From assembly GCA_030614945.1 (NCBI GenBank), contig JAUXAH010000097.1, positions 1 to 6,879 of the forward strand: 6,879 nt of DNA. The letters run 5' to 3'. Below are positions 298-6,759 of the stretch, one piece after another. The DNA is from Phycisphaerae bacterium (GTDB taxonomy: Bacteria; Planctomycetota; Phycisphaerae; Sedimentisphaerales; SG8-4). The translations under genes were made by a program, and so were the position numbers. The notes under the pieces were generated by a model that was not told the origin of the DNA, did no database searches, and was given only the letters and a program-made list of their open reading frames with translations. Within the stretch, counting starts at the first letter, position 1. Each line of letters opens with the position of its first letter.

Positions 298-1551
298 TTA
301 CGTATGGTAGTCCGCGTTGATTGTAACATATTCGGCGCTTAAATCGCAGCCGTAGCAAAAATCACTTTGCTTTCCTATTCCCAAATCCACCGTTATTGTG
401 TGTTCGGTTTGCGAAACGATTTTACCGGCCCTTTTTGCGTCAAACTTTTTAGGGGCACCGTTCTTAAAGACGGTTATACTGCCGAGTTTACAGGAGAGCT
501 TATTTGGGTTCAATTTTACGCCTGCTGAACCGACTGCACAGATAATTCTGCCCCAATTTGGGTCGCCGCCGTTGACCGCGCATTTTACCAGCGGATAATC
601 GGCTATCGCCCTGCTCGCTCTTGCAGCATCGGCCTTTGTAGCCGCACCTTCGACAACGACCTTGAACATCCGCGTTGCACCTTCGGCATCGAGGCCCATC
701 TGTTTGACTAAATCATCACACAGATCCGACAATGCCATAGCGAATCTCTTATATCGCGGACATCGGCTCACTATCGGGCGATTGCCAGCCAGACCGGAGG
801 CAAGAATTATCGCCGTATCATTCGTGCTTTGGTGGCCATCAACGGTTAGTTTGTTCAGCGAATTTCCGATAGCGGTCTTCAAAGCTCTCGCCAGCAGTGG
901 TTTTGTTATAGCGACATCGGTGGTAATAAAACAAAGTGTCGTCGCCATATTAGGAGCAATCATACCGGCTCCTTTGACCGCACCGGCTATGGTAATTTTT
1001 TTGCCGGAAATTTCGAGCCTACGGACGGCTTGCTTTGGCTTAGTATCGGTTGTCATTATCGCCTTCGCGAAATCCAGCCCGGCTTTAGATGAAGCTGAAA
1101 GCTTCGCCGCTGCCTTTGAAATGCCGGCAGTAATTTTCTCAATGGGCAATTGCTCCCCAATAATACCCGTAGAAGCAACCAGGACATTTCGTCCCTCCTC
1201 CTTCGTCTCTCGTCTCTCGTATTTCGTATGTCGTTCGAGATACGCTTCACGCTTCACGAAATACGCTGTTTTCGCACACATTGTTATTGCGTTTTTGACA
1301 CCTGCCTGGCCGGTGCACGTATTGGCATTGCCCGAATTGACAACCACCGCCGAAATGCCGGGGCTTTTTATATGCTTTTTGCTCACCTCTACTGCTGCCG
1401 ATACAATTTTGTTAGTTGTAAAGACCGCCGCCGCCTTCGCACCGGCTGGACAGACAAGAAGTGCCAGGTCAGACTTGCCTGATTTCTTAATCCCGCATTG
1501 CACCCCCGCCGCCAAAAACCCTTTAGCTGCAGTAATAGTATTATTAGCCAT
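298..1551 (-). CDS. argJ: glutamate N-acetyltransferase / ornithine acetyltransferase ArgJ, with an unusual internal insert
   Basis: ArgJ moves the acetyl group from N-acetylornithine to glutamate in the cyclic arginine pathway; family members may also use acetyl-CoA. The 417-aa protein has the expected N-terminus (GFLAAGV...GIKKSGKSDLALLV, residues 11-33), the VNSGNANTCTG motif (71-81), VLVASTGIIG (123-132), and the autocleavage site KGAGMIAPNMATT. Family knowledge places the self-cleavage between Ala203 and Thr204, which frees Thr204 as nucleophile and makes alpha and beta chains. VDGHQSTNDT (237-246), NGGDPNWGRI (327-336) and the C-terminal INADYHT are also family features. Between Gly81 and Val123 there are 42 residues where I expect about 25. 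The excess (about residues 97-121) is charged and is encoded by heptanucleotide repeat DNA. The start lies 24 bp after the preceding gene, with a weak AGAG ribosome site, which suggests co-transcription. Function is likely retained because every catalytic motif is present. Confidence 0.95.
   Translation of the reverse strand: MANNTITAAKGFLAAGVQCGIKKSGKSDLALLVCPAGAKAAAVFTTNKIVSAAVEVSKKHIKSPGISAVVVNSGNANTCTGQAGVKNAITMCAKTAYFVKREAYLERHTKYERRETKEEGRNVLVASTGIIGEQLPIEKITAGISKAAAKLSASSKAGLDFAKAIMTTDTKPKQAVRRLEISGKKITIAGAVKGAGMIAPNMATTLCFITTDVAITKPLLARALKTAIGNSLNKLTVDGHQSTNDTAIILASGLAGNRPIVSRCPRYKRFAMALSDLCDDLVKQMGLDAEGATRMFKVVVEGAATKADAARASRAIADYPLVKCAVNGGDPNWGRIICAVGSAGVKLNPNKLSCKLGSITVFKNGAPKKFDAKRAGKIVSQTEHTITVDLGIGKQSDFCYGCDLSAEYVTINADYHT
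1204..1266. repeat. palindromic heptanucleotide repeat array inside argJ
   Basis: On the plus strand, 7-bp units start at 1204 (CGTCTCT), 1211 (CGTCTCT), 1218 (CGTATTT) and 1225 (CGTATGT). A 4-bp unit CGTT follows at 1232, then 1236 (CGAGATA), 1243 (CGCTTCA), 1250 (CGCTTCA) and 1257 (CGAAATA). The two halves are partly inverted: CGTATTTCGT (1218-1227) is the exact reverse complement of ACGAAATACG (1256-1265), so a 10-bp stem with a 28-nt loop can form. The array encodes about residues 96-117 of ArgJ, in frame, where the family normally has only a short linker. It resembles heptameric short tandem repeats seen between genes in some bacteria, but here it lies inside a biosynthetic gene. Confidence 0.85.
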
Positions 1552-2199: not shown

Positions 2200-2403
2200 T
2201 CACGTACCCACCTTGTTTATTACCCTAGCGATTCGGAGGACGGCTTCGAAGCCGTCCCAAATATTCTCGTGGCTGATTACGCCCAACGCAACGGCTTCTT
2301 TGTGCAGTGCTTCATATATAGAAAGTGCCTTTTTATGGGAAATATTTTCCTCCTTGATTAATTTTTGATAAAACTTGTTTAATTTATGCTTGTTTTTTAC
2401 CAT
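2200..2403 (-). CDS. 67-aa protein of unknown function, translationally coupled to the MNT gene
   Basis: A small, lysine-rich (basic N-terminus), probably all-helical protein with no membrane segment and no cysteines. Its core reads KALSIYEALHKEAVALG (about residues 25-41), followed by a second helix with GFEAVLRIARVINK (about 51-64). I vaguely recall similar small proteins in planctomycete genomes but cannot name a family. Its ATG shares one base with the MNT stop codon (TAATG), and no good Shine-Dalgarno sequence lies at the right distance: GAGG is 13 nt away. Translation is therefore likely coupled to the MNT gene. This tight coupling suggests a third component of the HEPN/MNT module, but that role is inference. 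Confidence 0.72.
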   Translation of the reverse strand: MVKNKHKLNKFYQKLIKEENISHKKALSIYEALHKEAVALGVISHENIWDGFEAVLRIARVINKVGT

Positions 2404-2756
2404 TAAAGCCAGACGACCTCTTTAAGAATATGGCGGAGCCATAAATTGTAATCTTTTTTCATTCTTTCGACTTCTTCGCTGGTATAGGGAAAGACGTCAC
2501 AGCTTACTGACAGGTTGTCCGGAATATAATCAGGGATTCTGTCCAGGAAGCATTTGCTGCTCTGCTTTAGAATTATCAAAAGGTCAACGTCGCTTGCCGG
2601 GCCGAAAGTGTCGGTGACGTAAGAGCCAAACAATCCTACTTTTTCTACCTCCGGCGAGGTCCGCTTGAGTTTTTTGGCGTAATCTTTTAACTGACGTAGA
2701 ACCTTGTCTTTATCGGCGAAGAAAACTTTTGCAAAATTTGATGATTTCTCTGGCAT
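2403..2756 (-). CDS. MNT-type minimal nucleotidyltransferase (antitoxin-like partner of HEPN)
   Basis: A 117-aa minimal nucleotidyltransferase. The signature GLFGSYVTDTFGPASDVDLL spans residues 41-60, with Gly44-Ser45 and the metal-binding pair Asp56/Asp58. A third acidic residue, Asp87, sits in SCDVFPYT. The full catalytic set is present, so the enzyme is predicted to be active. In studied HEPN/MNT pairs (for example HepT/MntA) the MNT enzyme transfers AMP to the HEPN toxin and neutralises it; whether that applies here is inference. I chose the ATG at 2756 because AAGAGG lies 9 nt upstream and family members start here. An upstream in-frame ATG at 2822 would add 22 unrelated residues buried in the HEPN gene. 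The gene overlaps the HEPN gene by 47 bp and the 67-aa gene by 1 bp, indicating one cytoplasmic operon. Confidence 0.88.
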   Translation of the reverse strand: MPEKSSNFAKVFFADKDKVLRQLKDYAKKLKRTSPEVEKVGLFGSYVTDTFGPASDVDLLIILKQSSKCFLDRIPDYIPDNLSVSCDVFPYTSEEVERMKKDYNLWLRHILKEVVWL

Positions 2757-3102
2757 TTTTGATCGCCTCTTGAGCCTCTCTTTTCGTGTAATAATCGGCA
2801 GGAATCCCACGTTCAAAACCATTAGGATAACGCGTGGGAATATAATGCTTATCCAGAATCTTTGCAGCTTCTAACAACTTCTGTGGCACTTTCACCTTCT
2901 CATTGAGGGCCTTTAGCAAGGCATAGACCGAGTGTCCCCAACCTTCACCATGCAGATAAAGAAAAACAGCCTTGACTGCTTTTTCTGCGCCCTGCTGGGC
3001 GCTGAAACAGGACCACTCAAAGTCATTATCTTTGCAGGCATGTACTGCGTGATTTAAATCCCGTTTAGCCTGCGCCAGCCAATCTTTCGATCTATCGGGC
3101 AT
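2710..3102 (-). CDS. HEPN-domain protein, partner of the MNT nucleotidyltransferase
   Basis: A 130-aa helical HEPN-domain protein of the PF05168 type. Visible family hallmarks are WLAQAKRDLNHA at the start (8-19), WSCFSAQQGAEKAVKA (30-45), GWGHSVYALL (54-63) and the family signature HYIPTRYPNG (86-95). The toxin-type ribonuclease motif (R-x4-6-H near the C-terminal helices) is not visible in its usual place; the only formal match is Arg14-x6-His21 in the first helix. It may therefore be a non-nuclease HEPN that acts as a substrate or scaffold for the MNT enzyme. AAGGA lies 8 nt before the ATG. It is the first gene of the cassette and has its own promoter candidate 53 bp upstream. HEPN/MNT pairs are widespread as toxin-antitoxin or abortive-infection modules, but many remain untested. 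Confidence 0.88.
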   Translation of the reverse strand: MPDRSKDWLAQAKRDLNHAVHACKDNDFEWSCFSAQQGAEKAVKAVFLYLHGEGWGHSVYALLKALNEKVKVPQKLLEAAKILDKHYIPTRYPNGFERGIPADYYTKREAQEAIKNAREIIKFCKSFLRR

Positions 3103-3129
3103 TTCTTAGTCCTTTAATAAACAGAACAA

Positions 3130-3149
3130 AATAGGAACGTTCACCTATT
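3130..3149. promoter_or_regulatory. operator-like palindrome at the predicted HEPN/MNT transcription start
   Basis: AATAGG (3130-3135) and CCTATT (3144-3149) are perfect inverted arms around 8 nt, and the 8-bp palindrome GAACGTTC overlaps the left arm and spacer (3135-3142). The site begins 5 bp after the -10 box and covers the predicted start point, which is where a repressor would act. Toxin-antitoxin operons are often autoregulated. The binding factor is unknown. Confidence 0.4.
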
Positions 3150-6198: not shown

Positions 6199-6300
6199 AC
6201 TATTTTTGCATGGAACATTAAAGAATTTGGGCTTGGCTCGGTGAATGAGCAGGCGCTGGGTTTGAAATTGGGTTTGAATTGGGTTTGTTTTGAATAATAG

Positions 6301-6328
6301 TTCATTGTTCATTGTTCGTTGTTCATTG
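6301..6328. repeat. heptamer array (TTCATTG)x4
   Basis: Four consecutive 7-bp units, TTCATTG, TTCATTG, TTCGTTG and TTCATTG, lie directly in front of the first 50-bp repeat block. That copy's spacer is 43 bp instead of the 32 bp found before the other two blocks, so the array appears to have replaced or expanded the spacer. Confidence 0.85.
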
Positions 6329-6380
6329 TTATAATTCTTTGTTAAAACAGCACTTGCGTTCATTTTGGCTTTTCGGAAAT

Positions 6381-6428
6381 AGGTTCGACCCCTTCGACAA
6401 GCTCAGGACAGGCAAGCTCACTACAGGT
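6381..6428. mobile_element. short inserted element carrying the CTTCGACAAGCTCAGG motif
   Basis: Where the other two repeat copies run straight from AAAT into TGGGTTTG, the first copy is interrupted by about 46-48 bp. The interruption contains CCCTTCGACAAGCTCAGGAC (6390-6409) and a direct repeat CAAGCTC (6398-6404 and 6413-6419). Closely similar CTTCGACAAGCTCAGG motifs are, from memory, scattered through many unrelated bacterial genomes. No transposase is present, so it would be a non-autonomous or REP-like element. The boundaries are approximate. Confidence 0.5.
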
Positions 6429-6703
6429 TGGGTTTGTTTTGGGTTTGTTTTTTCATAGCCCTTATCCGCATTTTTCTTCATAATCCTTTGTAACTACACA
6501 CTTTGCATCAATTTTACCCTCTGGCAAATTGGGTTTGATTGGGTTTGAATTGGGTTTGTTTTTACCAAGTGTCCAATCGGATTTATTTTCATAATCCCTT
6601 GTATTATATGGATTTACATTCATTTGACTTTTTTGGAAATTGGGTTTGTTTTGCATAAAAAGGGTCGATTTGTAGAGCGTTCTCGACAGATGTAGAGCCG
6701 CCG

Positions 6704-6759
6704 AGGACAGAAGACAGAGGACAGAGGACAGAGGACAAAGGACAGAGGGCAGAAGACAG
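6704..6759. repeat. heptamer array (AGGACAG)x8
   Basis: Eight consecutive 7-bp units with consensus AGGACAG: four exact copies, the others with one change each (AAGACAG twice, AGGACAA, AGGGCAG). Purine-rich on the plus strand. A diverged direct repeat TGTAGAGC (6671 and 6691) flanks it on the left. Confidence 0.88.

Follow-up and report, generated by a model that had tools for sequence, protein, structure and literature searches.

A translated heptamer repeat in ArgJ of a planctomycete, its dispersed copies, and repeat-bearing loops in other enzymes

The argJ gene of a Phycisphaerae bacterium contains an 81-bp palindromic array of heptamers, which is read in frame and takes the place of a native loop. 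The core of the insert is shared with copies dispersed in related genomes, the many classes of ArgJ loop do not track the gene tree, and other genes are affected as well. We think it probable, at roughly 0.7, that a heptamer-hairpin element, dispersed and mostly intergenic, gave rise to the insert when one of its copies came to stand in for a flexible ArgJ loop, and that versions of this loop then pass between lineages. The gene lies in what we call the window, the whole 6,879-nt stretch of DNA analysed here.

Results

A heptamer array read in frame

The argJ gene occupies positions 298–1551 of the minus strand and encodes a bifunctional glutamate/ornithine acetyltransferase of 417 aa, an assignment made from NCBIfam profiles (TIGR00120, 417.6 bits with a cut-off of 298; NF003802, 447.8 bits with a cut-off of 351) and an AF2 model. 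Its codons 96–122, at 1186–1266 of the same strand, are an embedded repeat of 81 bp that can be divided in one register into 11 degenerate heptamers and 4 nt: ATTTCGT CCCTCCT CCTTCGT CTCTCGT CTCTCGT ATTTCGT ATGTCGT TCGAGAT ACGCTTC ACGCTTC ACGAAAT ACGC. The units are degenerate, agreeing with a single consensus at only about 0.6, and the lag-7 self-match of the stretch, 0.65, was reached by 0 of 2000 dinucleotide shuffles. The left inverted arm (CGTATTTCGT, 10 bp, 1218–1227) is the exact reverse complement of the right arm (ACGAAATACG, 10 bp, 1256–1265), and an arm of this length arises in 4 of 2000 dinucleotide shuffles of 1186–1266. As RNA the insert folds at -18.8 kcal/mol (z -2.3), which 2 of 200 shuffles equalled; no Rfam family matched the window at the gathering score. 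Within the array, positions 1236–1265 of the minus strand hold a 30-nt core that is common to the dispersed copies (CGTATTTCGTGAAGCGTGAAGCGTATCTCG on the coding strand) and encodes YFVKREAYL. The first conserved residues past the insert, as placed by comparing codons across L003 and ten further loci, are VLVASTG (1165–1185, minus strand), at the start of modelled strand 123–130.

The exact arms and the lag-7 signal beyond shuffles confirm the original prediction, made from the letters alone, that a palindromic heptanucleotide repeat is translated in frame within ArgJ. The prediction counted nine units, eight of them of 7 bp, which was right about the heptamers but too low in number, and it placed the repeat correctly while ending it at residue 117 rather than 122.

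The insert replaces a native loop

The best match to the window by ArgJ in our genome collection is a Phycisphaerae MAG, L001. Codon comparison shows that the insert is a replacement and not a clean addition, as the native TAKRIEVDPHN-type loop is gone, and comparison of the window argJ with L003 and ten other loci gave no evident target-site duplication. Five relatives (417 aa, 86–91% identical) carry the same insert, with the loop identical in three and altered by a few substitutions in two. The three with the identical 30-residue loop are P0002, P0003 and P0005, and P0003 and L001 are probably the same sequence. The 117 nt spanning the insert are identical in the window and L001, though the two argJs differ at 141 of 1254 nt (permutation p 0.00035). 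Measured against the nearest insert-free relatives (P0007–P0014, 400 aa, 85–87% identical), the predicted excess of about 17 residues is right, and the repeat-free close relatives have the shorter native loop instead of a non-repetitive linker of equal length.

Among the best 120 homologues, a list biased towards the query, 117 matched our motif. Their loops span 44 residues in 41 sequences, 50 in 23, 55 in 22, 67 in 11 and 61 in 9, with spans of 45, 49, 51, 54, 58 or 72 residues in the remaining 11. The loop is of 44 residues in 73 of the best 80 genome loci and longer in 7.

The AF2 model of the window ArgJ was built from a deeper alignment of 75 sequences (pLDDT 91.5, pTM 0.91), used instead of close homologues only, which gave pLDDT 36.7; its top Foldseek matches in the PDB are 1vz8 and 1vz6. 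All columns that are invariant across this alignment, which reaches to Streptomyces, are kept in the window ArgJ. In the model, helix 81–107 extends into the insert and is followed by a loop and then by strand 123–130, with a mean pLDDT of 64 for residues 111–120. The beta chain of solved relatives aligns from residue 204, which would put the insert in the alpha chain, some 80 residues ahead of the cleavage site.

Other parts of the window also contain repeats or lack a match in L001. Heptamer arrays of GTTCATT (6300–6330) and GAGGACA (6703–6759) lie outside annotated genes, as do repeated units of about 11 bp, TTGGGTTTG/TTGGGTTTGTT, at 6256–6660, where short ORFs read NKPN. Two overlapping genes at 2403–3102 comprise a nucleotidyltransferase, with a weak match under cut-off to MntA antitoxin, and a small partner, which we take to be HEPN, the kind often paired with MntA-type nucleotidyltransferases. 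Positions 2757–3146 have no blastn match in L001, and neither does the region at 1576–2169, which holds a 197-aa ORF with no NCBIfam match.

Copies of the element mostly stand before start codons

A search of 8 chosen genomes with window positions 1180–1272 as query gave at least three matches outside argJ, of 64–66 nt and 84–86% identity (in G061, G001 and G066; E 2e-15 to 1e-13), and the 30-nt core (query positions 8–37) was matched at 93–97% in 6 of the 8 genomes, among the matches listed. With up to 2 mismatches allowed, a 23-nt part of this core was counted 71 times, the G001 argJ copy included, across 14 of 18 chosen genomes, and its reversed control 0 times.

Twenty copies were taken from among the better matches, and an ORF had to reach 80 codons to be counted, or 40 when it extended past the end of the piece. 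A same-strand, ATG-started ORF begins no more than 31 nt from a point 5 nt inside the match end for 14 of the 20, at most 12 of them independent, since two pairs (L259/L260 and L261/L266) apparently precede the same genes. On the opposite strand an ORF lies within 80 nt for 3 of the 20 copies, and random positions have one within 80 nt in 443 of 2000 cases. With 14 of the 20 standing just before start codons, gene leaders seem to be where the element normally resides. Around CGTATCTCGAACGAGATACG, the folding energy is -9.8 kcal/mol or better in 7 of 17 dispersed copies and -4.7 kcal/mol in the window copy. Tags of the REP kind are not conserved, with GTAG in 2, CTAC in 1, CGTC in 2 and GACG in 3 of 21 sequences (the window among the last). 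The dispersed copies in relatives, mostly just 5′ of start codons, support the predicted view of the insert as intergenic-type repeat DNA within an essential gene, with the frame and conserved residues intact.

One ArgJ site, many loop fillings

Going beyond the original prediction, we find that this ArgJ site is a hot spot, filled repeatedly and in many different ways, that its loops are discordant with the gene tree and that other enzymes are affected. By regular expressions of our own, 107 of 197 distinct ArgJs have a native-type loop and the other 90 fall into 12 classes, two of them single-row classes that are not evidently repeat-like; 6 of the 12 rows of the IENR class are of native length. 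The DNA was seen for a minority of classes, and heptamer units could be read in it as ATCGACA-type (L118), CGTCCAT (L028), AAATTTC (L011) and CTATACG (L002). The loop of L122 contains a GATTGCTTCGCTTCGCTCGCAATGAC palindrome. Elsewhere it is the peptides that suggest a heptamer origin, which would hold for most of the classes. The ArgJ of P0061 has an HSERS-type peptide inside its loop.

On a quick tree made with the loop removed, loop class changes 46 times, or 23 times if scored only as native versus non-native. ArgJ cores that are 96.1% identical can bear an IRDTRY loop in one case and the native loop in the other, and the same is seen for LLRFARND and native loops. We also considered a single origin of the KREAYL loop. 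Grouping its 12 rows into one clade was rejected (p 1.3e-44), and doing so for just the six nearest the window gave p 0.021, on a tree of 58 of the 197 rows that we chose ourselves, in which 23 of 55 inner branches are weak; KREAYL was defined as a group only once the first tree had been seen. Identity in the flanks is raised for SLVARR and IRDTRY loops and is not raised for KREAYL, LLRFARND or IENR loops; with flank identity thus mixed across classes, recombination is weakly supported. Different versions of the ArgJ loop appear to have been swapped between species.

Heptamer arrays in other genes and genomes

In 720,154 bp of the genome G001, sampled as 20 pieces from contigs with a heptamer hit and 20 from contigs without, there are 56 lag-7 arrays, and other lags from 4 to 15 give 0–5 arrays, except for 18 at lag 14. 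These arrays show the STRR-like trait of tandem 7-bp units dispersed in a genome. TRF reported 42 repeats of period 7 in 80 loci, along with 2 of period 6, 4 of period 8, 29 of period 9 and 58 of period 12, and 0 of period 7 in a Markov control. Only 2 arrays occur in 400 kb of G032, a closed genome from the same family, and ATACGARATACGA is present in 32 of 198 genomes of the class; the array phenomenon is strong in some lineages only. At L157:4276–4490 four heptamer arrays lie within about 215 bp. Inverted repeats near the arrays in general show no excess over chance (2/56 vs 14/560). A stop-free strand is found in 52 of the 56 arrays, which is not special, as 90% of random heptamers have one likewise. 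CGA or TCG occurs in 28 of the 56 array units, compared with 18% of random heptamers drawn from one piece.

Nineteen of the G001 arrays fall in 16 long ORFs (NCBIfam and Pfam were run on 10 of these ORFs, Pfam alone on 6), and 10 arrays lie inside a family match: two each in MurD and PBP2, and one each in SpoVD/FtsI-like, GpsA, ParA/MinD-like, SMC, TruA and M16 proteins. The NCBIfam matches of PBP2, the SpoVD-like and the ParA-like proteins are below cut-off; the PBP2 and ParA-like arrays sit in Pfam domains above threshold, and the SpoVD-like array is between its two Pfam domains. In SMC and M16 the array brings no net lengthening of the match. Of the other 9 arrays, 1 is in the linker of an O-antigen ligase/TPR protein, 4 precede the start of the match (ProS, TolC, RecG, DHH) and 4 are in family-less ORFs. 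In the ArgS of L018 there is an in-frame ACAGACG array that is absent from 40 aligned homologues, one of which has a different insertion there.

MurD in 30 genomes has two variable loops, above base length in 17 and 21 of the 30, and not all of the added sequence is heptamers. Loop 1 of L184 holds a GTCATTG(C)GAGCGAAGCGAAGCAATC-type palindrome with heptamers on both sides, and that of L180 has them on one side. Palindromic elements in MurD loop 1 are of GCGAAGCGAAGCAATC type in L180 and L184, and GGATTCCCGCTTGCGCGGGAATGAC in L208. Reading through the MurD palindrome gives VIASEAKQS in loop 1 and, in other genomes, SLRAKRSNL in loop 2. GpsA is longer than base in 14 of 30 genomes. The genome load of one heptamer motif correlates with the length of MurD loop 2 (Spearman 0.38, p 0.04); it did not predict MurD loop 1, GpsA or ArgJ loops, and no group comparison was significant.

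Discussion

In the mechanism we propose, a hairpin-capable element built of heptamers would usually stand just 5′ of start codons in this planctomycete family, and one copy would have taken over the flexible helix-to-strand loop of ArgJ. That copy may have survived because it was open in the frame used and the loop is tolerant of length. As 7 and 3 are coprime, a heptamer array encodes one and the same cyclic heptapeptide whichever of a strand's three frames is read. Loop versions, whether the window's, other heptamer arrays or composites of array and palindrome, would then cross lineages, with homologous recombination in their conserved flanks as the likeliest means, and some arrays, such as those of GpsA, may grow locally. 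We infer that recombination is what carries the loops, that they are tolerated rather than functional, and that some mobilising activity is involved.

Growth in place would dispense with a dispersed element altogether: a chance heptamer in the DNA of the native loop would have expanded by replication slippage, with selection keeping the frame. The GpsA loops fit such local growth, with AAACTCAAAACT in L220 (15 aa in the stretch shown) and several ACTCAAA-type units in L214 (22 aa), and with a 7-aa difference in GGGACGA units between L211 and L209; steps of 7 aa are also seen within ArgJ classes (IENR, 13 to 20 aa; KREAYL, 23 to 30 aa). Length steps are nevertheless not generally multiples of 7 aa, as nearest-neighbour differences showed no enrichment in multiples (ArgJ 4/67, MurD 2/9 and 0/11, GpsA 4/13), and the window insert has its 30-nt core, and up to 66 nt, in common with other places in several genomes. 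To judge by this shared core outside argJ, local birth is an unlikely account of the window insert, but it may apply to GpsA.

The insert could instead be a selected feature of the protein, a helix extension or an interaction surface, to which the DNA repeat is incidental. The 117 identical nucleotides around the insert in the window and L001, the one 30-residue loop of P0002, P0003 and P0005 (with P0003 probably the L001 sequence) and the helix that AF2 carries into the insert would all suit a selected feature. It is at odds with near-identical cores that bear unrelated loop classes or the native loop, and with copies of the element standing before start codons, and we consider it somewhat less plausible still than growth in place. 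Nearly all of the sequences are metagenome assemblies, in which repeat-rich reads might be misjoined or misbinned within argJ, but the insert recurs in separate entries from jgi (P0002), ncbi (P0003, P0006) and ena (P0004, P0005), always in a protein of 417 aa with the frame kept, making an artefact very improbable.

If the preferred reading, a dispersed element copied into the ArgJ loop, is extended, a heptamer-hairpin family, possibly mobile and at home in gene leaders, could serve as a shared library of frame-indifferent protein loops, with the loops of ArgJ, MurD (twice) and GpsA as sites of cassette exchange between species. We offer this extension tentatively and regard it as rather more likely to be wrong than right. 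If true, loop-cassette exchange is a route from non-coding DNA to protein in housekeeping enzymes.

The repeats sit within enzyme domains, occupy matching sites in many species and change far more quickly than the remainder of the gene, so the process by which non-coding repeats become protein could be tested in one bacterial family with many natural alleles. Peptides of HSERS, LLRFARND or SEAKQS type are frequently dismissed as spurious ORFs. The present loops are a warning that such peptides can be genuine parts of proteins.

A close parallel is with the Rickettsia palindromic elements (RPEs). RPEs are short, dispersed palindromic repeats of about 150 bp that occur in frame in many unrelated genes (PMC10969869) and end in CGTC (PMC3733652). 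The original prediction drew this parallel fairly with regard to in-frame presence in genes: heptamer arrays in general are in frame within unrelated housekeeping genes (ArgJ, MurD, GpsA, ArgS, PBP2, TruA and others), the window's own element being read in frame only in ArgJ, and the window insert has stem-loop capacity through its 10-bp arms. It was also right that the two differ. Unlike RPEs, which are set apart here by their description, the planctomycete insert is of 81 bp with a 7-bp unit, a shared element of 64–66 nt, another sequence and no conserved GTAG or CGTC tag, and one gene site holds many types of insert. GTAG/CGTC REPs are found within genes, many of them for replication and repair, and often encode 20–30 aa (PMC3733652). 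They are simple palindromes, whereas the present element consists of tandem heptamers, and it lacks a conserved GTAG or CGTC tag in 21 sequences; the GTCATTGCGAGCGAAGCGAAGCAATC palindrome beside the MurD heptamers is, as a palindrome, nearer to this kind.

Among known heptamers, the TAACTGA repeats of Beggiatoaceae and cyanobacteria are dispersed direct repeats, often just 5′ of start codons, and their copies in function-assigned ORFs lie, with one exception, at protein ends or outside assigned domains (PMC4679880). The planctomycete arrays, in contrast, lie inside conserved enzyme domains, and the TAACTGA unit is absent from the units of the window insert and from the 56 G001 array consensuses. 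The G-rich heptamer arrays of Xanthomonas and Nostoc are also dispersed, and in Nostoc PCC 7120 68% are intergenic, with an unusually high part intragenic (PMC4692102); their units are different, and in-frame inserts in conserved domains are not described in the part of that account consulted. In the P6b element of the Nostoc tRNA-Leu intron, degenerate, hairpin-folding heptamers vary in copy number and foreign indels are taken up (PMC3488679), but those heptamers sit in intron RNA, whereas the planctomycete insert is in protein. PARCELs are palindromic protein-encoding DNA with seemingly horizontal movement, and consist of 25-residue tandem motifs in ORFs without assigned functions rather than inserts in enzyme loops (PMC2996958). 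Our searches of the open literature turned up no account of heptamer arrays within enzyme domains. The suggestion that the ArgJ insert could belong to an undescribed class of protein-embedding repeat needs narrowing: in-frame RPEs and intragenic REPs were already known, and what looks new is the presence of heptamer arrays in enzyme domains, apparently exchanged between species.
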